DNA from: Candidatus Equinaster intestinalis
GTDB taxonomy: Bacteria > Bacillota_A > Clostridia > Oscillospirales > Acutalibacteraceae
Assembly (NCBI GenBank): GCA_018065375.1
Contig: JAGHTJ010000067.1
Span: 1 to 16,967, forward strand
Reading direction: 5' to 3'
Length of the DNA stretch: 16,967 nucleotides
In this document: positions 1-16,967 of the stretch, one piece after another
How positions within the stretch are numbered: the first letter of the stretch is position 1
Layout: every line of letters starts with the position of its first letter
Notes under the pieces: model-generated
What the model saw: the letters and a program-made list of their open reading frames with translations, nothing else
Databases searched by the model: none
Told to the model about the DNA's origin: nothing
Translations under genes and position numbers: made by a program

Positions 1-1314
1 ATTAAGTACATTATAACATTTTTGCTGATTTTTTCAATATTTTCGTTAAATATACTGCCCGCATCTGCTTTTCAGGTAAGCGGATTTGAAATCTGGGCGC
101 AGGGCGCATTGCTTGTAAGCCTCGATACCGAGGAGGTCCTTTACAGTAAGAATGCCGACCAAAAGCTTTACCCCGCTTCCCTTACAAAAATGCTGGTTGC
201 AACGGTTGTGCTCGAAAACACCGAAAACCTCGACAACGAAAAAATAACCTACACCGAAACTGCCAACAATGCCATTCTCGGCACCGGCTCAAGTGTTATA
301 GGTCTTAAAATCGGGGAGGAGCTTACCGCAAGGCAGGCGCTTAACTGTCTGCTTATTTCTTCGGGCGGAGATGTGGCTTATGCCCTTGCCGAGCATTACG
401 GCGGCTCTACGGAAGGCTTTATGCAGATGATGAACGATACCGCGCAAAAAATCGGTATGACGGCTTCGCATTTCGGCAATCCGGTTGGTCTTCACGATAA
501 TGACACCTATACCACACCCCACGATATTTATTTGCTTGCAAAATACGCCCTTAAATACAAGGATTTCGAGGATATAACCTCTACAAGGAGATACACCCTC
601 GAGGCTACGAATATGTCGCGCGCACGCACACTTTCCACAACAAATTTCCTTACTGACCCCTCTACAAACTATTATTACAAGTATGCAAAGGGCATTAAAA
701 CGGGATTTACGGACGAAGCCGGCAGATGCGTTGTAAGCACTGCAAGCTACGGCGGATATAACTATATTTGTGTTATTATGAACTGCCAGAATACAGACGG
801 CAGACGTCACGAATTTTTGGACAGTCAGAATTTATACCGCTGGGCATTCAATAATTTCGAGTATAAATCCGTTCTCGATACCACAAAGCCCGCCGCAGAA
901 TTACCGGTTGAGTTAAGCCTTGATACCGACCATATTGAGCTTTTCCCAAAAACTACCCTCAACCGCATTTTACCGAAAAATGCCGATGCTTCAACAATTT
1001 CGCTCAAGGTTAATCTTAACTGCTCGGTTGCCACGGCGCCCGTTGCCGCCGACACGGTTTTCGGAACTGCCGATGTTATTTACGCGGGAGAAACGATAGG
1101 TCAGGTTGAGCTCGTTTCAAAGGAAAATATTTCTTCGAATATCTTCCTTAAAGCCGGCAGATTTATAAAGGACGCCGTAAAATCAACCGCCTTTAAAATA
1201 ATCGTATTCCTTATTATTGCCGCCGTAATAATTTTCATAATAATCGTTATATTTATGAACAGAGACCGTAAAAAACGCAGAAAAGTAAAATATGTTCCAT
1301 ACGATAAAAAGTAA
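1..1314 (+). CDS. D-alanyl-D-alanine carboxypeptidase (class A low-MW PBP, DacF type), 5' end cut by window edge
   Basis: Serine peptidase that trims the terminal D-Ala from peptidoglycan stem peptides outside the membrane. The reading frame is open from base 1; the first possible start inside the window is a TTG at 22, but the codons before it (IKYIITF) look like the middle of a signal peptide, so the true start is probably just upstream. Residue numbers here count from the TTG. Signal peptide ends near PASA/F (residues 13-17). The catalytic SxxK is S53-L-T-K56 and the KTG box is K226-T-G228. The second active-site motif, usually SxN, reads S114-G-G116, lacking the Asn. A C-terminal membrane anchor (about residues 392-414) followed by a basic tail is typical of DacF/PBP5 proteins. 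The stop lies 14 bases before the ATP synthase operon, so the two may be cotranscribed. Confidence 0.93.
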   Translation: MKYIITFLLIFSIFSLNILPASAFQVSGFEIWAQGALLVSLDTEEVLYSKNADQKLYPASLTKMLVATVVLENTENLDNEKITYTETANNAILGTGSSVIGLKIGEELTARQALNCLLISSGGDVAYALAEHYGGSTEGFMQMMNDTAQKIGMTASHFGNPVGLHDNDTYTTPHDIYLLAKYALKYKDFEDITSTRRYTLEATNMSRARTLSTTNFLTDPSTNYYYKYAKGIKTGFTDEAGRCVVSTASYGGYNYICVIMNCQNTDGRRHEFLDSQNLYRWAFNNFEYKSVLDTTKPAAELPVELSLDTDHIELFPKTTLNRILPKNADASTISLKVNLNCSVATAPVAADTVFGTADVIYAGETIGQVELVSKENISSNIFLKAGRFIKDAVKSTAFKIIVFLIIAAVIIFIIIVIFMNRDRKKRRKVKYVPYDKK

Positions 1315-1328
1315 AAGAGGGTGATAAT

Positions 1329-1616
1329 ATGAAAATCGCCGCACCAATTATCTGTGTAATTTTAGGACTTATAATCGGATGCCTCAATTACCGCATTTCA
1401 AGGCATTTTCTCAAAAAGAATACAATTTCCGTATTTACTTTAAGAAGCATTATTTGTGTGCTGTTTCTAACGGCTGATTTTTTCGTAAGCCGAAGATTGC
1501 CCGGGGTTAATACGCCGAGCATGCTTATTGGCGGCGTAATCGGAATCAGCATTACTTCGATTATCTTTACTAAAAAACTTTTAAATCAAAGCAATGGAGA
1601 TGATAAACTTGGGTGA
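1329..1616 (+). CDS. small membrane protein at the AtpI position of the ATP synthase operon
   Basis: A 95-residue hydrophobic protein with three likely membrane helices at about residues 4-19, 36-53 and 64-82, and basic loops between them. It starts with ATG after AGAGGGTGATAAT, a good ribosome site. Its position directly before atpB, its size and its helix pattern fit AtpI, the poorly conserved assembly helper for the c ring, but I see no diagnostic sequence motif, so the call rests on context. Its last codons overlap the start of atpB, so the two are translationally linked. Confidence 0.6.
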   Translation: MKIAAPIICVILGLIIGCLNYRISRHFLKKNTISVFTLRSIICVLFLTADFFVSRRLPGVNTPSMLIGGVIGISITSIIFTKKLLNQSNGDDKLG

Positions 1617-2316
1617 AGAATCAAAGGTTATATTTTCGCTTTTCGGCTTTCTTGATGTTACGGGCGAGGTTATCGGTATGTGGATAATTTTAGCCGTAAT
1701 TACCTTGCTTTGTCTCATAGTAAAAGCAAATCTTAAGGAGCGTCCCGGAAAATTTCAGAATATGGTGGAAACCGGAGTTGAATACCTTGATAATTTCTTC
1801 GGTGATGCCCTGGGAAAAGAAAAATCAAGAAAATACTTTTGTTTTCTGTCTTCCCTTTTCGTTTTCATAATATTTTCAAACTATTCGGGGCTTATCCCGG
1901 GAATGGGACTCACCGATTACGTTAAGGCGCCCACCTCTTCCTTTTCGGTAACCATAGGGCTCGGCATAATAACCTTCGTATTTTTACAAATTGCCGGCAT
2001 AAAAGCCGGAGTTAAGCATTATTTCAAGCGTTTTGTATCGCCGATGTTCTTTATGCTTCCCCTCCTGCTATTAGACGAATTCATAAAACCGGCTTCCCTG
2101 GCGCTTCGTCTTTTCGGAAATGTTTTCGGCGAAGAAACCGTAACCGAAAAGTTATACGAAATACTGCCGATAGGCGCACCGGTTGTTATGATGGCGCTTT
2201 CGGTGCTCTTCTGCGCTTTGCAGGCTATAGTATTCACAATGCTCGTTTCGATATATCTTGATGAGGTTACCGAAAACGATGAAACAGAAAAAATTAAAAC
2301 AATAAAGGAGAAATAA
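1594..2316 (+). CDS. atpB: F-type ATP synthase F0 subunit a
   Basis: The stator channel subunit that carries protons to and from the c ring. The family signature around the essential arginine is present as S-L-A-L-R172-L-F-G-N (residues 168-176), with several long membrane helices before and after. The length of 240 residues is normal for Firmicutes. The start is uncertain: ATG 1594 and ATG 1600 have poor ribosome sites, whereas TTG 1609 lies 9 bases after GGAG (1596-1599) and would remove five residues. In either case the start overlaps the end of the preceding small membrane gene. Confidence 0.97.
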
Positions 2317-2318
2317 TT

Positions 2319-2549
2319 ATGACACAATCAGGACTTATCGCTTTGGCGGCGGCAATAGCAATCGCCATCAGCACAATCGCTCCTGCGCTTGCGCAGGGTC
2401 TTACCGCAAAATCGGCCATGGAGAGTATTGCACGCCAGCCCGATGCCGCAAAAGACATTCGCTCGGCTCTCATCATCTCTCTGGCTATGATGGAGGCTCT
2501 TACCATTTACGGTCTTCTCATTGCCTTTATGCTTATTGCAAAAATTTAA
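2319..2549 (+). CDS. atpE: F-type ATP synthase F0 subunit c (ring subunit)
   Basis: A 76-residue two-helix hairpin forming the rotary ring. The ion-binding carboxylate is E59, in M-E-A-L-T-I-Y-G; the polar loop is A-R-Q-P (38-41). Q26 and Y64, residues shared with both chloroplast and Na+-type rings, are present, but the residue after E59 is Ala rather than Ser/Thr, the chloroplast-like arrangement, so proton coupling is the better guess. Helix 1 has A21-P-A23-L-A25-Q-G27 where most rings have GxGxGxG. The protein ends soon after helix 2, without the usual ANPF-type tail. It follows atpB by two bases, with AAAGGAGAAATAATT as ribosome site. Confidence 0.97.
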
Positions 2550-2558
2550 GGTGAAATA

Positions 2559-2978
2559 ATGAACATTCAAATTTCAGTAGTAATTTGGACGGTCATTTGC
2601 TTTTGCCTGCTTTTATTTATACTTACCAACCTTTTATTTAAGCCGGTGCTTTCGGTAATGGATAAAAGGAACAAAAAAATCGGCGATGCCAAAAAGAAAA
2701 AGCAGGAAGCGGCAGAAAACGCCGCCCGAATGCTCAAAGAGCAGGAAGCCCTTGCTGATAAACAGCGCGAATCCGAGCTTGCCGATTTAAAAGCGCAGGC
2801 AGAAATATTGCGTTTGGAGGGAAAGAAGTCGCTTGACGAAGCAAGAAAAGAACGACTTGCCACAGTAGAAGAATACCGCGCAAAAACCGAAGCGGAATTC
2901 GAAACCGAAATGAAATCGGCTGAATCGTCAATTTCCTCGCTGGCAGATGCTTTTCTTGAAAAACTCTTTGCGAACTGA
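2559..2978 (+). CDS. atpF: F-type ATP synthase F0 subunit b (peripheral stalk)
   Basis: Membrane-anchored stalk subunit: one N-terminal membrane helix (about residues 6-27), the usual F-K-P-V segment right after it (27-30), then a long, charged, Ala/Glu/Lys-rich coiled coil to the end. At 139 residues it is shorter than the common 155-170. The ribosome site is AAGGTGA before ATG 2559. The next gene also begins with a b-like membrane helix, so this complex probably has a heteromeric stalk of this b and the fused b', as in organisms with separate b and b' subunits. Confidence 0.93.
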   Translation: MNIQISVVIWTVICFCLLLFILTNLLFKPVLSVMDKRNKKIGDAKKKKQEAAENAARMLKEQEALADKQRESELADLKAQAEILRLEGKKSLDEARKERLATVEEYRAKTEAEFETEMKSAESSISSLADAFLEKLFAN

Positions 2979-2986
2979 CCGTAATT

Positions 2987-5209
2987 ATGGAATTTTTATA
3001 CTACATCATCAATTTTTTGATTTTGGCAGGCATAATACTGCTTTTATTCGGCAAAAAGATAATTGATATTTTCAAAAGTCGCCGCATTAAAATCGAGCAG
3101 GAATTAAACGATGCCGAAAATGAAAATAACAGCATAAACGAGGCTGTAGCTCCGAAAGAGCCGCAGTCTGTTGGTGTTTTGTCTGACGGTGATACCGATA
3201 ACCCCCTCGAGGAGGCAAGAGAGCTCACCGAAAAGCGGATAAACCAGGTTAAAGCCTATACCGAGCTCGAATGCCGTGATTTAACCCTTCACAAAATGCA
3301 AAGGGAACAAGCCGAGCTTATTAAGCTCTTTTCCGATGCAGTTAAGGAAAAATGCAATGCCGAAGAATATACCGACATTGAAAAGCTTGACGATGAAAAA
3401 ACCATTGACCGTATTCTCGGTATGATAAAGCTTACTGCCGGTGATATGGCATATCTTAAACAACACGAGGTATTATATGTTACCCTGTTTTCGGCAAACA
3501 AGCTCCCCGAAGCACTCATTAAAAAGGTGGAAAATGCCGCTTTAAAGCTTATCGAAACGGTAAACGGCAAAATCTCATTTTGGGTAAAGGAAGACCCCGT
3601 TCTAATCGGCGGCGTAAGGCTTCGTATCGGTGATACAATGTATGACGGTACTGCCCTTGAACAGATTTATCTTTTTTCAAAGGCGATAGAAAAAATGCAG
3701 GTAACCGAGTTTGATACTACCGACACACTCCTTGAAAGATTTTCCGGTCAGATTGAAAAAACCGAGCATATCGTATCGGTTTATCAGCTCGGCAGAGTTA
3801 TTTCGGTTTCGGACGGTATCTGTTGGATGGACGGTCTTGCCGATATTATGTACGGCGAGGTCGTTGAATTTGAATGCGGTGCCAGAGGTATGGTGCTCGA
3901 TATTCAAAAGGATCGTATCGGCTGTGTAATTTACAGCAGCTACGAGCATATCGAAAGCTACAGCCGTGTAAGGCGTGTAGGCAGAATTGCCTCTGTTCCG
4001 GTAGGCGAAGGCCTGCTCGGCAGGGTTGTTGATTCAATAGGCAACCCCATAGATGCAAAGGGCCATCTGCCGCACAGCGAGCGCCGCGCCATAGAGTTCG
4101 CCGCACCCGGTATACTTGACCGCGCCGCAGTAAATCGCCCCTTACACACCGGAATTAAGGCGATAGATTCCATGGTGCCGATAGGAAAAGGTCAGCGTGA
4201 GCTGATAGTAGGTGACCGCCAAACAGGTAAAACCTCTATTGTTGTTGATACAATCGTAAATCAAAAGGGCAAGGACGTTATCTGCATTTATGTAGGTATC
4301 GGTCAAAAGGAAACCACCGTTTCGGATATAAGGGAAAAGCTTTATCTGCACGGTGCTCTCGATTATACCGTAATAGTTTCGGCAACCGCTTCCGATAGCG
4401 CGGCTTTACAGTATATGGCTCCCTTTGCCGCTACGGCTATGGGCGAATACTTTATGTATTCGGGAAAAGATGTTCTCATTGTATACGATGACCTTTCGAA
4501 ACACGCCGTTGCCTACCGTGAGTTGTCGCTTCTTCTTCAGCGTCCCTCCGGCAGAGAGGCATATCCCGGCGATATTTTCTATCTCCATTCGCGTCTGCTT
4601 GAACGCTCCGCGCAGTTATCCGATGAGCTCAGCGGTGGCTCTATGACGGCTCTGCCCATCATAGAAACACAGGCGGGAGATATATCCTCTTATATACCGA
4701 CCAATGTAATTTCGATTACTGACGGTCAGATTTTCCTCGAAAGCGAGCTGTTCCACGAGGGTCAGCGTCCGGCAATCAATGTAGGACTCTCGGTATCCCG
4801 TGTAGGCGGTGCGGCACAAACAAAGCTGATGAAGCAGGTTTCCGCAAGCTTGCGCACACAGTTGGCACAATACCGCGAGCTTGCCGAGTTTACGCAGTTC
4901 GGCGCAGATATGGACGATGAAACCAAAAAAACACTCAACGCCGGCGAGCATCTCACCGAAGCTTTAAAGCAGAGCCGCTTCAAGATACTTGAGGACTGGC
5001 AGCAGGCTCTCCTGCTTTACAGCGTATCGCACGGCTTTACAAACGAAATACCGATAAATCTTATGCACCGCTTCGAGAGAATGCTCTACTCATATTTCCT
5101 CGAAAACAAGGCAGACCTGGTGGAAACACTTAAAACGGGTAACAAGCTTTCTCCCGATACCGCCCAAAAACTCGATGATGCAATATCCGAGTTTGCTGCG
5201 AGGTTTTAG
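2987..5209 (+). CDS. atpA: fused ATP synthase b'-delta-alpha protein
   Basis: A single 740-residue frame joins three ATP synthase parts. Residues 1-22 are a membrane helix, followed by a short basic amphipathic helix (23-47) like the start of subunit b. Residues 48-73 are a Pro/Ser/Asp-rich linker. Residues 74-159 are charged and helical. Residues 160-235 are the delta (OSCP) C-terminal domain, with its signature E202-D-P-V-L-I-G-G209. From about 237 on is a complete alpha subunit: P-loop G409-D-R-Q-T-G-K415-T, Walker B near D-V-L-I-V-Y-D-D, and arginine finger S-V-S-R605-V-G-G. The usual six-helix delta N-terminal domain is not recognisable. No other atpH or atpA is in the operon. An in-frame ATG at codon 237 could give free alpha of 504 residues. 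Actinobacteria are known to fuse b and delta; I know of no described fusion to alpha. The gene ends with TAG two bases before atpG. Confidence 0.95.
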   Translation: MEFLYYIINFLILAGIILLLFGKKIIDIFKSRRIKIEQELNDAENENNSINEAVAPKEPQSVGVLSDGDTDNPLEEARELTEKRINQVKAYTELECRDLTLHKMQREQAELIKLFSDAVKEKCNAEEYTDIEKLDDEKTIDRILGMIKLTAGDMAYLKQHEVLYVTLFSANKLPEALIKKVENAALKLIETVNGKISFWVKEDPVLIGGVRLRIGDTMYDGTALEQIYLFSKAIEKMQVTEFDTTDTLLERFSGQIEKTEHIVSVYQLGRVISVSDGICWMDGLADIMYGEVVEFECGARGMVLDIQKDRIGCVIYSSYEHIESYSRVRRVGRIASVPVGEGLLGRVVDSIGNPIDAKGHLPHSERRAIEFAAPGILDRAAVNRPLHTGIKAIDSMVPIGKGQRELIVGDRQTGKTSIVVDTIVNQKGKDVICIYVGIGQKETTVSDIREKLYLHGALDYTVIVSATASDSAALQYMAPFAATAMGEYFMYSGKDVLIVYDDLSKHAVAYRELSLLLQRPSGREAYPGDIFYLHSRLLERSAQLSDELSGGSMTALPIIETQAGDISSYIPTNVISITDGQIFLESELFHEGQRPAINVGLSVSRVGGAAQTKLMKQVSASLRTQLAQYRELAEFTQFGADMDDETKKTLNAGEHLTEALKQSRFKILEDWQQALLLYSVSHGFTNEIPINLMHRFERMLYSYFLENKADLVETLKTGNKLSPDTAQKLDDAISEFAARF
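3679..3697 (+). promoter_or_regulatory. candidate internal ribosome site and start codon for free alpha subunit
   Basis: Inside the fused gene, AAAGG (3679-3683) is followed after 11 bases by ATG (3695-3697), which is in frame and is codon 237. It lies at the end of the delta domain and the start of the alpha N-terminal extension (M-Q-V-T-E-F). AAGG is the 5' part of the anti-SD match, for which a spacing of 10-12 is acceptable. Translation from here gives 504 residues, the normal size of alpha, with the P-loop lysine at 179. It remains a hypothesis; in-frame methionines and AAAGG are common in such sequence. Confidence 0.45.
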
Positions 5210-5211
5210 AT

Positions 5212-7670
<2,459 letters not shown>

Positions 7671-7680
7671 AAATCGGTGA

Positions 7681-7839
7681 AAAACGCGCGGCGTTTATAT
7701 AATGCTTTCATTCCTCGAGCTGAACGGCATTAAACTCGGTGCGAGCTCCGATGATGTTGTTAAACTCGGACTTTCTGTTGCCGATGGCAGTTTTAATAAA
7801 GATGATATTTTAAAGTGGATTTTGGAGCACAAAGCTTAA
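7681..7839 (+). pseudogene. C-terminal remnant of a Doc/Fic (death-on-curing) toxin gene
   Basis: The frame 7681-7839 reads K-T-R-G-V-Y-I-M-L-S-F-L-E-L-N-G-I-K-L and ends I-L-K-W-I-L-E-H-K-A, which is how death-on-curing toxins read after their HPFxxGNKR active-site motif. Only about 53 codons remain. A TGA lies directly before them (7678-7680), and the active-site half and any Phd-type antitoxin are missing. The shifted frame at 7676-7699 reads G-E-K-R-A-A-F-I, which may be the corroded GNKR box out of frame. An ATG at 7702 could in theory be used but has no ribosome site. The piece lies between atpC and the operon terminator. Confidence 0.72.
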
Positions 7840-7844
7840 ATATT

Positions 7845-7874
7845 ACACCGCCCTGAAAATCAGGGCGGTGTTTT
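7845..7874 (+). terminator. Rho-independent terminator of the ATP synthase operon
   Basis: A perfect 10-bp stem CACCGCCCTG (7846-7855) / CAGGGCGGTG (7861-7870), extendable by one A-T pair, with loop AAAAT, followed by TTTTCTT. The GC-rich stem and T run make it a strong + strand terminator. It lies two bases before the end of the convergent lipoprotein gene and may also slow transcription from that side, though the T run there is poor. Confidence 0.93.
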
Positions 7875-7875
7875 C

Positions 7876-8640
7876 TTATTTAATTAAATCCAAATATTCA
7901 AAATTCCATTTTTCGCTTTTTAGATCCCAAAAGGAGCCTTTTTCATAATACGGCTTTAATTTTTCAAAGCTTCTATCCATATTAAAGGTTACTTTTTCTA
8001 TCGGCACGATATATTTTTTCTCGAATTTCGCTTTCCCGTTTTTATCAAATTCCGTTTCAACAAATTCATAGTTTTCCTCGTCCTCTGTCGGCTCATAATA
8101 AATAGAATTTGTTATCACAAAATCTTTCTTTTCGGAAGAATACTTACTCATCGAATATGTGGTTATTCTTGATGCTGTTCGGCTTCCCAAAACGGTTCTG
8201 GTTTCATTATCCAGAGAAAAATTCGGTATTGTTTCAAAGGTGGGCGCATAGGCAAAGCTTTTTTCTTCCGGCAAATAAATATACGCCTTAAAATAAACGG
8301 CGGAGGCAGGATTTAAATAAGGAATAAGTATATCTTTTTTGCCATCGAAATTAACATCGGCGGTATAGGCAAATTTATCCCCGAAGTGCTCATCCCAAGA
8401 TATATCTATACTCATTAACTGCTTTTTCTCATCTGCATTAAAAACTATAAGCTCTTTCTTTTCGCCAATCTCACGAAGCGCCAAGCTATAATCGTCCGTT
8501 TTTTCGCCCACAGTATCACTCATTTCATTTTTCACAGGTGTACTTTCTACCGGGATTTTTTCATCATTTATTTGCTTACAGCCTGCAAGCGAGCTTAAAA
8601 CCATAAGTATACATAATGCCGAAAATAAATGCTTTCTCAT
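7876..8640 (-). CDS. lipoprotein with XAC2610-like calcium-loop domain
   Basis: A 254-residue exported lipoprotein: basic start, hydrophobic helix, and lipobox L-A-G-C with Cys21 as the predicted lipidated residue, then a polar linker (22-50). The central part has D95-V-N97-F-D99-G-K-K-D103, a calcium-binding-type DxNxDG loop, within a beta-rich segment like the XAC2610 family, whose function is unknown. It is likely anchored on the outer face of the membrane. It has its own promoter and GAGAGGTG ribosome site, is convergent with the ATP synthase operon, and shows no functional tie to either neighbour. Confidence 0.85.
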   Translation of the reverse strand: MRKHLFSALCILMVLSSLAGCKQINDEKIPVESTPVKNEMSDTVGEKTDDYSLALREIGEKKELIVFNADEKKQLMSIDISWDEHFGDKFAYTADVNFDGKKDILIPYLNPASAVYFKAYIYLPEEKSFAYAPTFETIPNFSLDNETRTVLGSRTASRITTYSMSKYSSEKKDFVITNSIYYEPTEDEENYEFVETEFDKNGKAKFEKKYIVPIEKVTFNMDRSFEKLKPYYEKGSFWDLKSEKWNFEYLDLIK

Positions 8641-8674
8641 AAATTCACACCTCTCATTTTTTAATCACAATTTA

Positions 8675-8703
8675 ATTATATGGCAGTATTTTCCTTTTTA
8701 CAA
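8675..8703 (-). promoter_or_regulatory. sigma-70-type promoter of the lipoprotein gene
   Basis: On the - strand, TTGTAA (8698-8703) and a perfect TATAAT (8675-8680) are separated by exactly 17 bases, about 35 bases upstream of the start codon. The ribosome site GAGAGGTG lies at 8648-8655. Confidence 0.75.
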
Positions 8704-8710
8704 GCAACAA

Positions 8711-8745
8711 AACGGTTACAAAATAATTACAACTTTGTAACCGTT
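8711..8745. repeat. 12-bp perfect inverted repeat upstream of the lipoprotein promoter
   Basis: AACGGTTACAAA (8711-8722) and TTTGTAACCGTT (8734-8745) are exact inverted copies separated by 11 bases. The repeat sits eight bases upstream of the -35 box of the lipoprotein gene and beyond the terminator of the uronate operon. Read on the - strand the hairpin is followed by TTTTG, so it could be a second weak terminator; alternatively it could be an operator. Confidence 0.7.
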
Positions 8746-8774
8746 GCATTTTAGATAAGTTTACATAATAAAGT

Positions 8775-8813
8775 AAAAGCTTACCCGATAAAAATACTCG
8801 GATAAGCTTTTTT
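8775..8813. terminator. terminator at the end of the uronate operon (hairpin usable in both directions)
   Basis: AAAAGCTTA (8775-8783) pairs with TAAGCTTTT (8803-8811) and CCGA (8785-8788) with TCGG (8798-8801) around one C/A mismatch, with a 9-base loop. On the + strand it is followed by TTGTTTT; on the - strand the stem itself ends in TTTT. It lies just after the uxaC stop, so its likely job is to end the - strand operon. Confidence 0.8.
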
Positions 8814-8823
8814 GTTTTAAAAA

Positions 8824-10182
8824 TTATATGCCGAAAAATTCCTTTGCATTCTTAAAGCATACCGCCTCAACTATTTTTGCGGCGGCTTTTTCATCGGGGA
8901 ATTCATCGTTTTCAACGAGCTCGCCTATATATGCGCACAAAATTCTTCTGAAATACTCGTGCCTTGTATAGGAAAGGAAGCTTCTGCTATCGGTAAGCAT
9001 TCCGATAAAAGCACCAAGAGCCGAAAATTCCGAAAAATCGGCTATCTGCTTTTGCATACCGCGGCGGGTATCATTAAACCACCAGGCGCTTCCCTGCTGA
9101 ACCTTACCCTTTATTCCCTTTTCGGCAAATGCGCCGCAAATGGCAAGTATTTCGGCATTATCTTCAGGGCGAAGCGAATAGAGCAAAACCTTCGGCAGTT
9201 TTCCGATTTTTTCCTGCGCATCGAGAAGTTCTTTGAGCCCGTCTACCGAGCGGCGACCTATTACATCGAAGCCCGCATCGGCGCCCAACTTTTCAAATGC
9301 CGCGGAGTTTATATTTCTTTCAACCCCGAAATGCAGTTCGCAAACGAGGTTTTCCTCGGCAAAAATTGTGAGAAGCAACTGTAAAACATAGGTTTTATAC
9401 TCGTCCTCTTGAAGCTGTGTAAGGGCTTTACCCGAAAGCCTATCCTTTAAAATTGCGTTTGCCTTTTCACGGCTTGTTTGCGCATTCGGAACATAGGGCA
9501 TTCCGCAGTCTGCCGCTACACAACCCGCCTTTTTAAATTCGGCAAGACGGCTTCTCAAGGCTTCCTCAAGGCTTTCTACATCGGAAGCACCGAGAGTATT
9601 CATATAATCGCAAAAATCGGATTTTTCAATGGCAAGCGCCCTATCGGGACGAAATGCCGGAAAAACTCCCGTTTTAAAGGTTTTATCCGCCGAAATTTCG
9701 TGATGATAGGATAAATCCTCGGTGGGGTCATTCGTAGTACAAAGCGCGTAAACATTGGAGCTTTCAATAATATTTTTTACCGAAAGATTTTTAAGCTTTT
9801 CCGCCGTTTTTTCCCAAATGAGCGGTGCGGTTTCCTCCGATAAAAGGGTATCAATGCCGAAATATTTTTTAAGCTCAAGGCGGCACCAGGTATAAAGCGG
9901 ATTGCCCGCAAGGCTCGGCATAATGCTCGCAAAAGCAAGGAATTTTTCATAATCATCGGCTTTGCCCGTGATTTTTTCTTCCTCCACTCCGCAAACCCTC
10001 ATCTGCCGCCATTTATAATGGTCTGCTTCGAGCCAAACCTGCGTTAAATTTTCGTAAACGCGGTTTTGAGCAATTTCCTTTGCCGGAACGTGGCAATGAT
10101 AATCTATTATCGGCTGATTTGCGGCATGGTCAAAATAAAGGCGCTTTGCCGCATCGGTATTAAGTAAAAAATTATCGTTCAT
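8824..10182 (-). CDS. uxaC: uronate isomerase (glucuronate/galacturonate isomerase)
   Basis: Converts D-glucuronate to D-fructuronate (and galacturonate to tagaturonate) in the cytoplasm, the first step of hexuronate breakdown. This amidohydrolase-superfamily enzyme shows the N-terminal metal motif I-I-D-Y-H29-C-H31 and the conserved late block T-D-S-R-S-F-L-S-Y-T-R-H-E-Y-F-R-R. The length of 452 residues is near the usual 460-470. It is the last gene of the operon; its ATG overlaps the TGA of the preceding gene (ATGA), so it depends on translation of that gene, which carries a nonsense codon farther upstream. The terminator follows its stop. Confidence 0.97.
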   Translation of the reverse strand: MNDNFLLNTDAAKRLYFDHAANQPIIDYHCHVPAKEIAQNRVYENLTQVWLEADHYKWRQMRVCGVEEEKITGKADDYEKFLAFASIMPSLAGNPLYTWCRLELKKYFGIDTLLSEETAPLIWEKTAEKLKNLSVKNIIESSNVYALCTTNDPTEDLSYHHEISADKTFKTGVFPAFRPDRALAIEKSDFCDYMNTLGASDVESLEEALRSRLAEFKKAGCVAADCGMPYVPNAQTSREKANAILKDRLSGKALTQLQEDEYKTYVLQLLLTIFAEENLVCELHFGVERNINSAAFEKLGADAGFDVIGRRSVDGLKELLDAQEKIGKLPKVLLYSLRPEDNAEILAICGAFAEKGIKGKVQQGSAWWFNDTRRGMQKQIADFSEFSALGAFIGMLTDSRSFLSYTRHEYFRRILCAYIGELVENDEFPDEKAAAKIVEAVCFKNAKEFFGI

Positions 10183-11303
10183 TTAAGGGTTCTCCACCTT
10201 TTTTCGTATTCGCCGCTTGTATGTGTATCGGCGGTTTCTTTAAGCTTTGAGTTTTTACGGCGTTGCTCGAGTAAATTATCAAATTTTTCGGTATCGAGCG
10301 GAAGCGCAACCTCTTCACCCGTCCAGGCGGAAAGATATGCGGCATTGGTAATCGTAAGCTCGTTTATGCCCTCTGTGCCTCTTGCTACAAGCTCTCCTCC
10401 CGAAATTATCGCATCGGAAAGGCATTGCAAAACGCCCTCGTGCTGTGTGCCGGGGTCGGTAAACTCGGTAACCGTAACATCAAAATCGCCCTTTTCGTTT
10501 TTAAGATAAAGGGTGAGCTTTTGCATTTCGGCTATGAGCTTGCCCTTTTCTCCGCAGATTTCAAGACGGTTTGTTCCGGGATTTTCCCCGGTAGAGGTCA
10601 TAAAGACTGCCGTTCTGCCGTCAGAATACCGACAGCTTATCACGGCATCGTCCTCAACCTCGATATTATGCTATTTACCGACATAACAATCAGCGCGAAC
10701 ATAATCGGGCATACCGAAAATCCATTGCATCAAATCGAGCTGGTGAGGTGCCTGATTCATAAGCACACCGCCGCCCTCTCCGAGCCAGGTTGCACGCCAT
10801 GAGCCGGAATCGTAATACTCTTGATTTCTATACCAGGCGGTTGCCTCCCAGAGAAGTCTTTGGGGTTTGCCCAAAATGCCCTCTTTTATGATACGGCGGA
10901 CCTCTCTATACATCGGGTTTGTACGCTGATTCCACATAATTGCGAAAACCTTGCCCGATTTTTCAGCCGCCTCGTTCATTTTAATTACATCGCTCACCCT
11001 TACTCCAGCCGGCTTTTCGGTGAGAACATTCAGTCCCCGCTTGAAGCCCTCAATCGCATAAACGGTATGGAAATAATGGGGGGTTGCAATTATAACGGTA
11101 TCTATTTTTGCGCAGTCAAAAAATTCCTCTGCCGTTTCGAAAAATTCGGCATCAGGGCAGTTTACCCTTGCCCACTCCTTACGCTCGGGCGAAATATCGC
11201 ATATCGCCGCAAGCTTCATACCGGAGATTTTGCCGCCATAAATAGCGGTGGCATGGGCTGAACCGACATTACCTATGCCGATTATACCTACAGAAATTTG
11301 CAT
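10179..11303 (-). pseudogene. Gfo/Idh/MocA oxidoreductase gene interrupted by one in-frame TAG
   Basis: NAD(P)-dependent sugar dehydrogenase family. Start ATG 11303 follows AAAGAGGTAG; the frame then shows the Rossmann motif G-I-G-N-V-G, E96-K97-P98, and H187 in Q-A-P-H-Q-L-D, all family hallmarks. At codon 211 (10671-10673) there is a TAG; beyond it the same frame continues cleanly (H-N-I-E-V-E-D-D) to TGA at 10179, giving 374 codons in all. The paralogue at 13997-15160 has G-K-W-H-D-I-E-V-E-D-D here, so the stop replaces W214, a single TGG-to-TAG change. There is no other damage, so the mutation is recent, polymorphic, or a sequence error. If real, the 210-residue product lacks most of the substrate domain. 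The end overlaps uxaC by ATGA. Confidence 0.9.
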
Positions 11304-11316
11304 AAAACTACCTCTT

Positions 11317-12138
11317 TTAAACTCCGGAATATGCTGAAAATCCACCGTCAATCGGAAGAACAATTCCGGTTATAAAGCCCGATTTTGTTTCATCAAGCAG
11401 GAAATCGAGACCGCCGTTAAGCTCCTCGGCTTCACCAAATCTGCCCATGGGGGTAGACCTTAAAATTTTATCGGTACGGGGTGTAGGTGTGCCGTCCTCA
11501 TTAAAAAGGAGGGCTCTGTTTTGGTTGGTTACGAAAAATCCGGGAGCTATGGCATTTACCCTTATACCCTGCGGTGCAAAATGGGTTGCAAGCCACTCGG
11601 TTAAGTTTGAAACGCCTGCCTTTGCCGCTGAATATGCCGGAATTTTCGTAAGCGGACGAAATGCGTTCATTGAGGAAATATTAAGAACACAACAACCCTT
11701 TTTACCTATCATATCGGGTATGAAAACCTGGGTGGGAATGAGGGTTCCGAGCAAATTCAAATCAAAAACAAAGCGGAAGCCATCTGCATCGAGATTAAAA
11801 AATGTTTTAAAATCTTCTGCGCTTTCGTCTCCCTCTTCGAAAAACTCGTGAGCGGTAGTGCAACGCGGATTGTTTCCGCCTGCGCCGTTTATGAGTATAT
11901 CGCATTTGCCCATATCGGCAAGAATTTTTTCGTGAACGGCATTAAGGCTTTCCTTTTCGAGCACACTGCAGGCATAAGCGAAGGCTTTGCCGCCCTTTTT
12001 ATTTATTTTTTCGGCAACCGCGTTTACCGCCTTTTCGTTTATATCAAGAAGCGCAACATTATTGCCTTTTTCTGCCAAATGCTCTGCGAATGCTGAGCAG
12101 AGAACTCCGCCTGCACCCGTAATAACTATATTTTTCAT
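11317..12138 (-). CDS. uxuB: SDR-family oxidoreductase, probable D-fructuronate reductase (mannonate oxidoreductase)
   Basis: A 273-residue classical short-chain dehydrogenase: nucleotide motif T7-G-A-G-G-V-L-C14, N-G-A-G-G in the fourth strand region, and catalytic Ser (S-S-M), Y169 and K173 in Y-S-A-A-K. In Firmicutes the fructuronate-to-mannonate step is often done by an SDR of this type (B. subtilis YjmF) rather than the long-chain UxuB of E. coli. Its place between uxuA and uxaC, the enzymes on both sides of this step, supports that role. The start follows GAGAGGAAACGGAAT. The symbol is given by role, not by homology to E. coli UxuB. Confidence 0.8.
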   Translation of the reverse strand: MKNIVITGAGGVLCSAFAEHLAEKGNNVALLDINEKAVNAVAEKINKKGGKAFAYACSVLEKESLNAVHEKILADMGKCDILINGAGGNNPRCTTAHEFFEEGDESAEDFKTFFNLDADGFRFVFDLNLLGTLIPTQVFIPDMIGKKGCCVLNISSMNAFRPLTKIPAYSAAKAGVSNLTEWLATHFAPQGIRVNAIAPGFFVTNQNRALLFNEDGTPTPRTDKILRSTPMGRFGEAEELNGGLDFLLDETKSGFITGIVLPIDGGFSAYSGV

Positions 12139-12151
12139 ATTCCGTTTCCTC

Positions 12152-12934
12152 TCAATCGAAAATTTTGAGAACCTCGCGCATTTGCTTTACGGTTTCGTCC
12201 CAGTTTTCACCGAAATTACCCTCAAGGCTCATTCTTTCGTTATAACCGTTTTTCTTTATTGCCGCCGCCCATCTTTCGCAAACGGGTTTATCCTCGGGGT
12301 TAATCGGCATTTTTCTATCGGAATTGGCTCTTGCTATATGAAGGTGTGCAAGGGTTTCGCCGCAGTTTTCTATTGCATCGAGGCTTTCACCTGTCATAGC
12401 AACATGGAAGAAATCGGCGAGCACCTTTGCGTTTTTATGGTTTGCCTTTTTGCATATATCAATGCCCTCGGCTACGGTATTTATGAAATTGCTGTTACCC
12501 TTATAAAGCGGCTCTACAACTACCGTAATGCCGTATTTTTCGGCAATTTTCGCCGAAAGACCGAAAACCGTTGCAAACTGATTTACGCCGTCCTCCCAAT
12601 TTACATCATCGGGAATCTGTCTGGCACCGCCGCAACCGATAACCGCAACCTTTGTGCCCAGCTTCTGCGCCTTTGAAAGAGCAGTTTCAAGATAATTTTC
12701 AACATCAGAATAATCAATACCGGGTTTTACGAGATAACTGCCGCCGTATTTAAAGAAGCAGTTTACCGCCTCGGCATAAATTCCGGTTTTTTTGCTCTCT
12801 GCTAAAAATTCTTCGATTTGGGTTTCGTCCCAATCCGATACTACCGAGAGCGGAATTTCGGCATAATCGTAGCCGAATTCTTTAAGCTTTGCAAGCTTTT
12901 TATAATCTGCATCAACGCATACTCCGTAACGCAT
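12152..12934 (-). CDS. sugar isomerase/epimerase-type TIM barrel (AP endonuclease 2 superfamily)
   Basis: A 260-residue xylose isomerase-like TIM barrel. The likely metal ligands and acid-base residues are E141 (V-V-E-P), D174 and H177 (A-D-F-F-H), H199 (L-H-I) and E238 (S-L-E-G). ATG 12934 is preferred over ATG 12940 because AAGGAG lies seven bases before the former and only one base before the latter; ATG 12940 would, however, form an ATGA overlap with the uxuA stop. Such proteins isomerise or epimerise sugars, and some act on 3-keto sugars. The substrate cannot be read from the sequence; the uronate operon suggests a uronic acid or keto-uronate. Confidence 0.8.
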   Translation of the reverse strand: MRYGVCVDADYKKLAKLKEFGYDYAEIPLSVVSDWDETQIEEFLAESKKTGIYAEAVNCFFKYGGSYLVKPGIDYSDVENYLETALSKAQKLGTKVAVIGCGGARQIPDDVNWEDGVNQFATVFGLSAKIAEKYGITVVVEPLYKGNSNFINTVAEGIDICKKANHKNAKVLADFFHVAMTGESLDAIENCGETLAHLHIARANSDRKMPINPEDKPVCERWAAAIKKNGYNERMSLEGNFGENWDETVKQMREVLKIFD

Positions 12935-12936
12935 AA

Positions 12937-13974
12937 TCATTCTCCTTTTTCTGCGGCTTCAAACAAGCCTTTTAAATAGGCGGCGCCGAGCGCACGGTCA
13001 AAAAGTCCGTAACCGTAGCGTCCGCTTTCGCCCCAAATCATTCTGCCGTGGTCGGGACGAACATATCCGTCAAACCCGCCATCGAGCAGTCCCTTTACTA
13101 TTTTATACATATCGAGCGAACCGCACTCGGAGGGGTGACCGACTTCTTCAAACTGTCTATCCCCCGTGATTTTTATATTGCGCAGATGTGCAAAGGGTAT
13201 ACGAGAAGCATACTTCTTTGCCATATACGGTAAATCATTCTGCGGGTTTGCACCGAGTGAACCGGTGCAGAACGTAAGTCCGTTATACTCCGAATCCTCG
13301 ATTTTAAGAAATCTATCGAGATTCTTTTCGCAGGTGATAATTCTGGGAAGACCGAAAATTCCCCATGGCGGGTCGTCCGGATGTATCGCCATTTTTATTC
13401 CCGCCTGCTTTGCTACGGGAATTACGGCGTGCAGGAAGGTTTCAAGGTTTTTCCAGAGTTTTTCTTCGTCTACGCTTTCGTAAGCGCGGAGTAAATCCTT
13501 AAGACCCTCTTTTGTATAGCTCGAATCCCAGCCGGGAAGTGAAAGGTCGCCCTTTAAGGGGTTCATCTGAAGAACGGTGTTTTCATCGTAGGCAAGGGCA
13601 TTTGCACCGTCCGCCTGCTGATGCTCAAGCTCGCTTCGCAGCCAATCGAAAACCGGCATAAAGTTATAGCAAACGCATTTTACGCCCGCTTCGCCGAGTC
13701 TGCGGATATTTTCGCAGTAATTTTCAATAAGCGCGGCGGCTTTTTCGTTTCCGAGCTTAATATCCTCGCTTACCGGAACGCTCTCAACCACCTCAAATTC
13801 GAGACCATTTTTCTCTGCCTCGTTTTTTATGGCGGCTATGCTTTCCCTGCTCCAGATTTCACCCGGTTTTACATCGTAAACTGCCGAAACAATTCCGGTC
13901 ATACCCGGTATCTGCCTTATTTGAGAAAGGGTTACCGGGTCGCCTTTACCGTAATGGCGAAATGTCATTTTCAT
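12937..13974 (-). CDS. uxuA: mannonate dehydratase
   Basis: Dehydrates D-mannonate to 2-keto-3-deoxygluconate in the cytoplasm. The 345-residue protein has the UxuA signatures M-T-F-R-H-Y-G (3-9), A-I-H198-P-D-D-P-P (197-204), T-F-C236-T-G-S-L-G, P-F-A-H263-L-R-N-I, and R-P-D308-H309-G-R-M-I-W-G-E. H198, C236, H263 and D308 are the likely Mn2+ ligands. The start at ATG 13974 follows GAGGGGAG. It is one of the shorter UxuA forms but keeps all core motifs. The enzymes that would use its product (KdgK and KdgA) are not in the window. Confidence 0.97.
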   Translation of the reverse strand: MKMTFRHYGKGDPVTLSQIRQIPGMTGIVSAVYDVKPGEIWSRESIAAIKNEAEKNGLEFEVVESVPVSEDIKLGNEKAAALIENYCENIRRLGEAGVKCVCYNFMPVFDWLRSELEHQQADGANALAYDENTVLQMNPLKGDLSLPGWDSSYTKEGLKDLLRAYESVDEEKLWKNLETFLHAVIPVAKQAGIKMAIHPDDPPWGIFGLPRIITCEKNLDRFLKIEDSEYNGLTFCTGSLGANPQNDLPYMAKKYASRIPFAHLRNIKITGDRQFEEVGHPSECGSLDMYKIVKGLLDGGFDGYVRPDHGRMIWGESGRYGYGLFDRALGAAYLKGLFEAAEKGE

Positions 13975-13996
13975 AAATTTTCGCTCCCCTCAAGCC

Positions 13997-15160
13997 TTAA
14001 AAGGTGCTTGACATATCTTCCTTAATAACCTTTACAACGTTGGTTTTACGGCGAGAAGTTGCAATATGCTTTTTAAGCTCCTCGTAATAAGCATCATCAT
14101 CAAACGGAATGGAAACGGGCTTGCCGGTCCACTGTGAAAAATGCATTGCATTTGAAATGCTTACGGCCTTAAGACCCTCTCTGGCATCCGCAACCATTTC
14201 TCCGCCATGAAGAATATGGTCTGCAAAAGCATTAAGAACGCCGGGATGATTGGTGGCTTCGCCTTCAACCGGAATTTCCTTATATTCGTAGGGTGCTCTG
14301 CCAAACGGGTCGGTAGTAGTTGCAGACCAATCCTGCTCCTTATATTCGGAAAGCCACTGATAAAGTCTGCCGTTTTCGGCAACTAATTTGCCCTTTTCAA
14401 AATCTATTTCGAAACGGTTGGTGCCGGGGTTATCACCGGTAGTTGTAACAAACACACCGGTTGCACCGTTTTCATATTCAACATAAGCGGTAACATCGTC
14501 TTCAACCTCAATATCGTGCCATTTGCCGAAGCCGAGGTGAGCCGAAACCTTTACGGGAGTACCGCAAATCCACTGCCATATATCAAGGTTATGCGGGCAC
14601 TGATTGAGAAGCACACCGCCGCCTTCGCCTGACCAGGTAGCACGCCAGTCTCCCGAAGCATAATAAGCATTCGGTCTGTACCACTCGGTAATAATCCAGT
14701 TTGTTCTGCGGATTTCACCCATAACGCCGCTCTTTACGATTTCGCGCATTTTTCTGTAAATCGGATGTGTACGCTGGTTCATCATAAGTCCGAAAGGAAC
14801 CTTGGTTTTATCGGCAACGGCTATCATTTCCTTAACCTGCTTTGTATAAACGCCTGCCGGCTTTTCAACCATTACGGCAATACCCTTTTCCATAGCCATT
14901 ATGGCATATTTCGGATGGTCGTAATGCGGAACGGCAACGATAACGGCATCAATGAGTCCGCTATCGAGCATTTCTTCGGCAGAACCGAAAAGTCCGATTT
15001 CATGCTTTACAAAATCCTTTGCCCAAGCAAGTCTGTCTGCATCAATATCGGCAACTGCGGTGAGCTCTATTTCGGGGCACTTACCTGCTTCGAGGTTTCT
15101 GACGTGGCCCGAGCCCATATTTCCTATACCGATGATACCTAAACGTAATTTCTTTTCCAT
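13997..15160 (-). CDS. Gfo/Idh/MocA family NAD(P)-dependent oxidoreductase
   Basis: A 387-residue sugar dehydrogenase with an N-terminal Rossmann fold (G11-I-G-N-M-G16), the catalytic-type E99-K100-P101, and H190 in Q-C-P-H-N-L-D in the C-terminal substrate domain. It is clearly a paralogue of the broken gene at 10179-11303: both share N-Q-R-T, G-E-G-G-G-V-L, T-G-x-N-P-G-T-N-R and E-V-E-D-D. Relatives oxidise a sugar hydroxyl, often at C3 (for example YcjS of E. coli), or reduce keto sugars. The uronate operon suggests a glucuronate-containing substrate, but this is inference. The ribosome site is GGAGGAAAT. Confidence 0.9.
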   Translation of the reverse strand: MEKKLRLGIIGIGNMGSGHVRNLEAGKCPEIELTAVADIDADRLAWAKDFVKHEIGLFGSAEEMLDSGLIDAVIVAVPHYDHPKYAIMAMEKGIAVMVEKPAGVYTKQVKEMIAVADKTKVPFGLMMNQRTHPIYRKMREIVKSGVMGEIRRTNWIITEWYRPNAYYASGDWRATWSGEGGGVLLNQCPHNLDIWQWICGTPVKVSAHLGFGKWHDIEVEDDVTAYVEYENGATGVFVTTTGDNPGTNRFEIDFEKGKLVAENGRLYQWLSEYKEQDWSATTTDPFGRAPYEYKEIPVEGEATNHPGVLNAFADHILHGGEMVADAREGLKAVSISNAMHFSQWTGKPVSIPFDDDAYYEELKKHIATSRRKTNVVKVIKEDMSSTF

Positions 15161-15181
15161 AATAATTTCCTCCGTTTATAA

Positions 15182-15940
15182 TTATTTAAGACCTAAAGAA
15201 TGCAAATAATCGTAACTGCGCTTAAGACACATAAAGGGGTCCTCGCCGTTGCAGTTATCCTGCTCAACAAGAGCATACTTTGTGCCCGCTTTTTCGCAGG
15301 CGGCGATGATTTTATCCCGGTTCATATTGCCGTCTCCTATCGGCATCATACGAGGCTGGTTATCAAAGCAGGACATATCCTTAAAATGAACACAGTCTAC
15401 CCTGCCCGTAAGCTTTTCTATCCAATCGGTAACATCAGAGCCCGAATACTGAACCCAATATGTATCGAGGATTATACCGAGCTCGTCTGCCGGAATTGCC
15501 GCACAGAGCTTTTCCATAAAGCGCTTATTATCCTCGCCGCGGATAAACTCTCTCCAATGATTATGGTAATAAAGCTTACCGCCGCGCTCCTTAAAGTGCT
15601 TTGCAACCGGACCTAAATTATTTACGAAATAGGCAAGTCCCTCATCGTTTACACCAATCGGGCAGGAGCCTATGCCCATTCTCGAGCAACCGAAAACCGC
15701 GTGTTCATCAAAAACGGTATCGGGCATTTCCACCATACGCTCTGCCTTTGAATGGGTTATAACACATTCGAGGCCGTTCTTTTGGAGCTGCTCTTTCATC
15801 CAATCAGGCTCGAAAGCGCAGGTTCCCGAAACCTGAACGGTGGTGTAACCCATATCAGCTACGCGGGCAAGCGCGTTTGCCAGGTCATCAAGGGTTTGTG
15901 TGTGGTCATAGAGGGTAAAAAGTTGTGCGCCGATTTTCAT
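15182..15940 (-). CDS. sugar isomerase/epimerase-type TIM barrel (AP endonuclease 2 superfamily)
   Basis: A 252-residue xylose isomerase-like barrel. The motif L-Y-Y-H126-N-H128-W-R-E-F is characteristic of a large group of such proteins, including those paired with Gfo/Idh/MocA dehydrogenases. Likely metal residues are D159 (L-D-T-Y-W), H185 (C-V-H-F-K-D188) and E226 (V-E-Q-D). It begins by an ATGA overlap with the upstream barrel gene and ends 21 bases before the intact oxidoreductase, so it is cotranscribed with both. IolE/IolI and YcjR are members of the same superfamily; the exact reaction here is unknown. Confidence 0.85.
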   Translation of the reverse strand: MKIGAQLFTLYDHTQTLDDLANALARVADMGYTTVQVSGTCAFEPDWMKEQLQKNGLECVITHSKAERMVEMPDTVFDEHAVFGCSRMGIGSCPIGVNDEGLAYFVNNLGPVAKHFKERGGKLYYHNHWREFIRGEDNKRFMEKLCAAIPADELGIILDTYWVQYSGSDVTDWIEKLTGRVDCVHFKDMSCFDNQPRMMPIGDGNMNRDKIIAACEKAGTKYALVEQDNCNGEDPFMCLKRSYDYLHSLGLK

Positions 15941-16791
15941 TTTATAATCACCTTTCCTTTAAGAAATTCTTTAACTGCATTTACGCCGGCATCAAAGGCG
16001 GCATCGGCGTTTTCATAATCACTGCCGCTGAATTTCGAAGCATTTTTTTCAAGACTTCCGCGCGCCGCAAATTCAAAAAGATGGGGTTCTATTGTGGCGA
16101 AGCTTCCGCCCGATGAAATGTAATCGTTTAGAATAAAGGGAACATTGCCCTCGCCCTTTCCGCAGGGCACTACAACTCCGCTTTTCAGCGAATCCTTTAA
16201 ATGCAGATATGCGGTGCAGGGTTTTAACATTTCCCAAGCCGGCAGGGTATCAAATCCGCATTGAACGAAATTTGAGGGGTCGAAAATTGCCCTTATGCCG
16301 GGAATTTTTTCGCATATTTCCTTACAGAATTCGGGGTTATCGCCGTAAACGTCCTTTTCGTTTTCGTTACACAGCAGTATATCCTTTGATAATTCCGACA
16401 ATGCGTTTAATCTTTCGAGAGCATATTTTCTGCCATCTTCTTCGCTTAAAGAATCCTCTCTGTAAAAGCTGAAAATACGCATTTTATCAGCTCCCAAAAT
16501 TCGGGAAATTTCACAGAGCCTTAAAAATCTTTCTTTTTCCTTATCGAAATCCCCGGTAACCGATATTTTACCTATCGGCGAGCCGATTGTTTTAACCGCG
16601 ATATTATCCGCTTCAAGCCGTTTTTTAAGCTCTGAAGCTTCATTTTCGGTTAAATCGGCACAGTTTTTATCCCCCACCGTGCGAAGCTCAATAAGGCGCA
16701 AGCCGTTACGCTTTAAAGCGGCTATCTGCCCCTCAATATCATTTGAAGCTTCATCGGCAAATGCGGCAAGGGTAAAAAGCTTATCTGACAT
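15937..16791 (-). CDS. sugar isomerase/epimerase-type TIM barrel, first gene of the uronate operon
   Basis: A 284-residue barrel of the AP endonuclease 2 superfamily. ATG 16791 is chosen because AGGAGGAG (16800-16807) ends eight bases before it; a TTG at 16797 in frame is too close to that site. Probable metal and catalytic residues are E143 (C-N-E-N-E), D171 (F-D-P-S-N), H197 with K199-D200 (H-L-K-D), and E235 (I-E-P-H). The sequence is only distantly like the other two barrels in this operon, so the three are unlikely to be redundant. It overlaps the next gene by ATGA. Confidence 0.85.
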   Translation of the reverse strand: MSDKLFTLAAFADEASNDIEGQIAALKRNGLRLIELRTVGDKNCADLTENEASELKKRLEADNIAVKTIGSPIGKISVTGDFDKEKERFLRLCEISRILGADKMRIFSFYREDSLSEEDGRKYALERLNALSELSKDILLCNENEKDVYGDNPEFCKEICEKIPGIRAIFDPSNFVQCGFDTLPAWEMLKPCTAYLHLKDSLKSGVVVPCGKGEGNVPFILNDYISSGGSFATIEPHLFEFAARGSLEKNASKFSGSDYENADAAFDAGVNAVKEFLKGKVIIK

Positions 16792-16823
16792 AGGCAAAAC
16801 TCCTCCTATCTTGCTTTTCTTTT

Positions 16824-16852
16824 ATTATATTATGAAAATAAATGCAATAGAA
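16824..16852 (-). promoter_or_regulatory. candidate promoter of the uronate operon
   Basis: On the - strand a TATAAT (16824-16829) lies about 17 bases upstream of the AGGAGGAG ribosome site. At 17 bases farther upstream the -35 position (16847-16852) reads TTCTAT, a poor match, which fits a promoter needing an activator. The AAATGCAA/TTGCATTT repeat covers the spacer and the region just upstream. Confidence 0.55.
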
Positions 16853-16912
16853 TTGAAATATTTTGCATTTAATATTGTATTTTTGCTCATTTTGATATAT
16901 AATTATTGCAAT
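16840..16912. repeat. TTGCA/TGCAA motifs in the divergent intergenic region, candidate operator
   Basis: AAATGCAA (16840-16847) and TTGCATTT (16863-16870) form an 8-bp inverted repeat with a 15-base spacer, and a third copy is the palindrome ATTGCAAT (16905-16912). The first pair overlaps the promoter of the uronate operon; the third lies just after the -10 box of the divergent gene. The layout suits a regulator acting on both, but the surrounding DNA is AT-rich and chance repeats are possible. Confidence 0.45.
16875..16903 (+). promoter_or_regulatory. sigma-70-type promoter of the divergent gene
   Basis: TTGTAT (16875-16880) and a perfect TATAAT (16898-16903) with a 17-base spacer, about 30 bases upstream of ATG 16934. 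Confidence 0.7.
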
Positions 16913-16933
16913 ATGAGCTTCGGAGGCAAAAAA

Positions 16934-16967
16934 ATGATTTTATATCACTATGAAGACTACGATATTC
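16934..16967 (+). CDS. start of a divergently transcribed gene, cut by window edge
   Basis: ATG 16934 follows CGGAGGCAAAAAA, a good ribosome site, and reads M-I-L-Y-H-Y-E-D-Y-D-I to the window end. Eleven codons are too few to identify it. Its position head to head with a catabolic operon is typical of a local regulator such as an AraC-type protein, which is an inference from context only. Confidence 0.6.
   Translation, partial: MILYHYEDYDI

Follow-up and report, generated by a model that had tools for sequence, protein, structure and literature searches.

Fusion of a b'-like stalk arm and the δ C-terminal domain to the α subunit in F-type ATP synthases of uncultured gut Clostridia

In every ATP synthase described to date the complex contains one a subunit, and the δ N-terminal domain, lying on the symmetry axis, has been argued to restrict the peripheral stalks to one (Ueno et al., 2025; PMC12229609). 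In an engineered version of the Bacillus PS3 enzyme (PDB 9jc1) this domain was removed, the remainder of δ was joined to α and the ε subunit lacked its C-terminal domain: the resulting δΔN-α enzyme forms as many as three stalks and a subunits, with a ratio of protons to ATP (H+/ATP) of 5.8 against 3.0 in the wild type. By cryo-electron microscopy (cryo-EM), three-stalk particles were very rare, for which the authors blame stalk loss. Natural δΔN-α fusions are also named (Acidaminococcus fermentans; UniProt G4Q3K6, A0A1I2C5T3), and the joining of the δ C-terminal domain to α is therefore not new (all as given in the sections of PMC12229609 drawn on here). Elsewhere, a fusion of δ and b is reported in Gordonia and Mycobacterium (PMC5709465), and the N-ATPases are described as having no δ subunit (PMC5706428). 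Here we describe a gene from a stretch of 16,967 nucleotides of Candidatus Equinaster intestinalis (assembly GCA_018065375.1, contig JAGHTJ010000067.1, positions 1 to 16,967 of the forward strand; hereafter the window), which encodes in one chain a b-like stalk arm (b'), the δ C-terminal domain and a complete α subunit, within the gene order a-c-b-[b'-δ-α]-γ-β-ε.

The fusion gene is a single uninterrupted frame from the ATG at 2987 to the TAG at 5209, with 740 codons and no internal stop (Table 1). An earlier note on this DNA, made from the letters alone, had proposed b', δ and α in one gene, and the frame bears this out with Pfam and NCBIfam domains in a single chain: the Pfam model ATP-synt_B matches residues 3-61 (25.1 bits, slightly below the cut-off of 28), OSCP matches residues 108-231 (30.3 bits against a cut-off of 22.3), and three α domains span residues 269-736, with TIGR00962 (atpA) scoring 712.6 bits against a cut-off of 484.45. 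The δ signature EDPVLIGG, also claimed earlier, lies at residues 202-209. In the window the functional residues are intact: the α P-loop and SVSRVGGAAQ motif, the β P-loop and catalytic Glu motif, the c Glu and the a Arg. In the fused genes of all 27 genomes searched, the match covers about positions 95-172 of the 172 of the OSCP profile; the window's Pfam alignment begins earlier, at profile position 50, and the structure model shows no N-terminal helical bundle there. The δ part of the model superposes on the bovine and E. coli δ C-terminal domains at 1.5-1.8 Å. By profile coverage, model and superposition, the δ part of the fusion is essentially the C-terminal domain, and the N-terminal domain is missing; the δ of the earlier note stands as far as the C-terminal domain goes, and fails as a complete subunit. 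With this domain fused to the α N-terminus, the gene has the δΔN-α arrangement, and its residues 203-736 align in a single stretch to the deposited engineered PS3 chain.

In a collection with one genome for each species, relatives are encoded at 258 loci; the best 80 of these were examined, making 81 with the window. The fused frame runs without a stop between the parts at all 80 (four end at a contig edge within the gene), and relatives with two genes at the same positions, which the earlier note had said would refute the fusion, did not appear among them. The complete a-c-b-fusion-γ-β-ε order is present at 66 loci; at the other 14 at least one gene is missing from the available DNA or, at L076, the order is odd. 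A protein search with residues 1-270 gave 321 matches, and 117 of the 120 listed exceed 700 amino acids. A search with residues 1-237 over a length range excluding fused proteins, which reaches only proteins with shared exact words, gave one match, a fragment of 141 amino acids on a contig of 614 bases. The joint between δ and α is equal in length in 14/14 diverse segments, and 80-81 of the 81 sequences have a letter at each window column. Over 60 pairs, the ratio of nonsynonymous to synonymous substitution rates (dN/dS) is about 0.07 in the joint, 0.07 in α, 0.08 in δ and 0.17 in b', values that are rough because synonymous sites are near saturation. All 80 loci come from metagenome assemblies, many of them from herbivore guts, which might favour the explanation that assembly or sequencing errors deleted the stops between separate genes. 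Against this stand the 80 fused loci and the 398 genomes of one host's phylum, nine of which match a profile of the joint (E-value 1e-18): the host itself is fused, and the other eight all have stops between adjoining δ and α. Such an error is refuted in effect, and the anatomy of the fused gene is firm; with only one of these nine genomes fused, the design is that of a minority within the phylum.

The earlier note knew of no fusion that includes α, a claim overturned by the δ-α fusions of PMC12229609 and by further ones without b' found here. Matches to δ occur in at least 334 of the 398 phylum genomes. Of 19 genomes picked for a weak δ match, nine have stop-free δ-α frames of 605-659 amino acids without b', and in a tenth (G028) the δ end of the match lies inside an α frame of 610 amino acids. 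Five δ-α proteins, from four picked genomes and L131, are confirmed by Pfam (OSCP from 94-104 to its end, plus α, in a single chain), the others by frame and δ match. In an α tree of 52 rows (L120 and L132 were dropped from 54), all 22 b'-δ-α rows group at 100/100, the δ-α rows L109 and L131 adjoin this clade at 96/96, and a weakly supported branch (67/85) has every fused row on the same side. From this we infer as the likely course that the δ N-terminal domain was lost and the remainder fused to α first, and that a second b joined later as b'. L120, with b and δ joined and α separate, was considered as an intermediate and rejected: it is an N-ATPase by its alt_F1F0 scores (α 817.6, b 242.9). 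On the same models the window's genes fall outside the N-ATPases (α 590.6 against 750.5, β 597 against 752, separate b 43.9 against 224.7). The N-ATPases are a third arrangement, with b joined to the δ C-terminal domain and α separate.

Some other δ-like frames were observed along the way. L121 (G072) has a frame of 290 amino acids with two tandem δ-like matches between b and a separate α; L115-L118 (G181, G281, G372, G257) and G393 have a frame of about 104-127 amino acids resembling the δ N-terminal domain alone, and these five genomes contain no F-type α above the cut-off. A δ-α query returned eight proteins, one of which (P0129, 339 amino acids) has b and δ domains without α. In the open-licence literature searched, no report of a b'-δ-α fusion was found, and δ-α fusions were found only in Ueno et al.; the sections consulted of PMC5709465, PMC4154653, PMC6131620 and PMC5706428 contain no b'-δ-α. 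Within the reach of these searches, what is new is a b' arm carried in the same chain, by a conserved clade of uncultured gut Clostridia.

F1 requires three α subunits, and the δ N-terminal domain normally sits on its three-fold axis. The earlier note saw a stoichiometry problem here, three α against one δ and two stalk helices; the question is real, and the missing δ N-terminal domain is the key to it, because that domain is held to limit the enzyme to one stalk (PMC12229609). The gene product would be an α with a built-in stalk arm, leading from the b' membrane helix and stalk through the δ C-terminal domain to α, an order that, as had been recognized, fits the geometry of the enzyme. With the δ N-terminal domain gone, the three-fold axis atop F1 would be free, and each of the three α could hold its own arm, each arm pairing with one separate b. 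The stator would then be three-fold, with peripheral stalks numbering two or three, each with the capacity for an a subunit, and more protons per turn could allow ATP synthesis, or proton pumping, at low proton-motive force. By analogy with the engineered enzyme, we regard an enzyme in which two or three stalks work and at least two a subunits are present as the best explanation, at a probability of roughly 0.6; three arms per complex, their pairing with b, the additional a subunits and a raised H+/ATP are its predicted features. A bolder form, to which we would give somewhat less than even odds, is a natural synthase with three stalks and three a subunits, each α bringing its own stalk, and an H+/ATP that no known natural ATP synthase reaches. 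If true, protons per ATP would rise in proportion to the a subunits, and fermenting gut Clostridia could synthesize ATP at very low proton-motive force.

In 16 of the 27 host genomes examined for the 80 loci, which are assemblies and may be incomplete, there is no second F-type α above the cut-off. Six of these 16 (G001, G008, G013, G019, G021, G022) have V/A-type subunits, as judged from frame lengths, and four of the six also contain the V-type C subunit; in the other ten (G002, G003, G006, G009, G014, G015, G017, G020, G025, G027) no other rotary ATPase was found. The remaining 11 hosts have a second α, nine of them adjoining a full δ and two (G007, G012) being δ-α frames of 578 amino acids without b'. 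These last two genomes, with L132 and L131 respectively, each encode two different fused ATP synthases, one b'-δ-α and one δ-α. Free α could also be initiated at an internal start codon in the δ/α joint, and the window has an ATG at 3695 (Met237) just where a free α would be expected to start, with a weak site of -4.2 kcal/mol. That ATG, however, is present in one of the 81 sequences, the window alone; a joint ATG with a ribosome site of -6 kcal/mol or lower occurs in 4/81 against a mean of 9% (standard deviation 8%) in 200 control windows, and a joint start codon of any kind with a site in 11/81 against 19% in the controls. Neither conserved nor more frequent than in the controls, an internal start at the joint finds no support, and we hold it to be a most improbable source of α. 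Without a conserved internal start, and with no other F-type α in 16 of the 27 hosts, all three α should carry the stalk arm, a conclusion we consider strongly suggested. The ribosome site of the fusion itself is weak: it reaches -6 kcal/mol or lower in 23% of 75 cases, and those of the other six genes do so in 79-100%. These sites are somewhat flattered, the true start having been taken to be the best ATG no more than 12 codons from where it was expected. The fusion ATG begins at the fifth base past the b stop in 28/73 (the ninth in the window). The weak start and the closeness to the b stop suggest translation coupled to b, which in turn suggests a b:fusion ratio near one.

Two small subunits of the operon are also to be considered here. 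Among the 81 loci, ε stops at most 17 residues past the sandwich in all 70 wholly alignable operons, the window included. In subunit c, the helix 1 glycine motif was put in register by the c subunits of Ilyobacter and B. pseudofirmus: with this presumed register, the full GGGG set is missing in 77/79 c subunits of fused operons against 4/14 of ordinary ones (two of 16 were dropped for having no RQP loop to count from). The c of the window reads AxAxAxG. Such an eroded motif hints at a wider ring, of no particular claimed size; the published c-ring glycine motif and register are those of PMC2914638 and PMC4453477.

Several points weigh against a multi-stalk enzyme of this kind. Its operon, like those of ordinary enzymes, contains a single a gene and a single b gene; the b' hinge could make the arm floppy; the chain may be cleaved; without coupling of its translation to b, so weak a ribosome site is odd for a subunit needed thrice; the count of hosts without a second α comes from assemblies that may be incomplete; and ε is also short in 6/13 ordinary operons and long in one δ-α operon, so that a short ε is consistent with the fusions and not diagnostic of them. 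The single a and b genes would suit an enzyme in which all three α bear arms, of which just one assembles with a and b into a working stalk while the remaining two are idle membrane tethers. Such idle arms would be accommodated by the hinge (residues 52-72), and the rarity of three-stalk particles by cryo-EM in the engineered enzyme, even if ascribed by its authors to stalk loss, agrees with them (PMC12229609). Yet that engineered version formed up to three full stalks (PMC12229609), and constraint acts on both b' (dN/dS about 0.17) and the δ C-terminal domain (about 0.08), although a single working arm per complex would be enough to account for this; idle tethers are in our view a serious but rather unlikely outcome. 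A post-translational cut between δ and α, leaving one usable b'-δ and free α subunits, would restore the usual stoichiometry. The joint at residues 237-264 is nearly indel-free and constrained about as much as α, unlike a disposable linker, and a b'-δ so released, without the δ N-terminal domain, would lose a main dock on F1; we think cleavage improbable.

Table 1. Features of the ATP synthase operon in the window; OSCP is the δ family, and pLDDT is the predicted local distance difference test score of the structure model.
Feature	Positions	Strand	Evidence and remarks
Subunit a	1594..2316	+	PF00119; conserved Arg in LALRLFGN
Subunit c	2319..2549	+	PF00137; MEALTIYG
Separate stalk subunit b, 139 amino acids	2559..2978	+	PF00430
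b'-δΔN-α fusion gene	2987..5209	+	740 amino acids; open reading frame, Pfam, NCBIfam; fused in 80/80 relatives examined
b' part, residues 1-146	2987..3424	+	membrane helix and stalk helices; model helices 2-51, 73-124, 126-146; pLDDT 89.5
b' hinge, disordered, residues about 52-72	3140..3202	+	pLDDT <50 at 56-69; columns poorly conserved
δ/OSCP C-terminal domain, residues 151-236	3437..3694	+	OSCP profile about 95-172 in relatives; structural superposition
Joint and α N-terminal helix, residues 237-264	3695..3778	+	nearly indel-free; dN/dS about 0.07
Complete α subunit, residues 265-740	3779..5206	+	P-loop GDRQTGKT, SVSRVGGAAQ
Subunit γ	5212..6006	+	PF00231
Subunit β	5999..7390	+	Pfam, NCBIfam; ATG 5999 with strong Shine-Dalgarno, -13.4; longer frame from TTG 5975
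Subunit ε, 99 amino acids	7371..7670	+	PF02823 at 10-94; β-sandwich only, no space for C-terminal helical domain

The neighbours of the fusion in the operon are a, c, b, γ, β and ε only, each above its Pfam cut-off, and the earlier statement that no separate δ or α gene is present here holds. Against the NCBIfam equivalog cut-offs α, β and a score above, whereas γ, ε, b and c score below and are therefore divergent. The locus has the α, β, γ, ε, a, b and c of an F-type enzyme with intact functional residues, and of the two-domain δ only the C-terminal domain; it is therefore an atypical F-type ATP synthase. It is not of the V/A type, since V-type models stay below their cut-offs and the atpA and atpD models are far above theirs. 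Among the relatives the a Arg is kept in 77/77 and EALTIY in the c of 76/79; β motifs are found at 76/81 loci, the remaining five having no β listed. Directly before subunit a (1329-1616) is a predicted membrane protein of 95 amino acids with no Pfam match above the cut-off, in what we take to be the usual place of AtpI. Further along, on the minus strand (8824-16797), are genes that by eye from their translations resemble those of sugar-acid, sugar-isomerase and oxidoreductase metabolism, which fit a plant-fibre gut habitat.

The fusion should give the motor several stalks in place of one and may permit it to work at weak membrane voltages. It opens two questions to direct test, the natural occurrence of multi-stalk ATP synthases and the dependence of H+/ATP on the count of a subunits in addition to ring size, and it is relevant to the gain of ATP from weak gradients by fermenting bacteria of the gut. 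Having one stalk chain tied on covalently could also make the enzyme less prone to the loss of stalks described for the engineered one.

Among known systems, the stalks of V/A-type enzymes with subunit E offer a resemblance only. The Mycobacterium smegmatis b-δ fusion (7nkd_d) retains the δ N-terminal domain and, unlike the present chain, leaves α separate; the window's gene accordingly falls outside the actinobacterial b-δ family (PRK13428), having α in the same chain and no δ N-terminal domain. The N-ATPase of L120 is similar in that its b bears the δ C-terminal domain (OSCP 91-172), and differs in its separate α. Closer are the natural δΔN-α proteins (L102-L110, L131 and L132), in which the δ C-terminal domain is likewise fused to α, but in frames of about 578-659 amino acids without b'; that of Acidaminococcus was compared by its description. 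The engineered PS3 enzyme has been measured, whereas the present one is known from its genes alone. The two share the absence of the δ N-terminal domain, the joining of the δ C-terminal domain to the α N-terminus and an ε without its C-terminal domain; they differ in the stalk, b being a separate homodimer in PS3, whereas the present operon encodes a second, separate b besides the b' built into the fusion. The b'-δ-α family is thus a natural, conserved counterpart of the laboratory change that broke the single-a rule.
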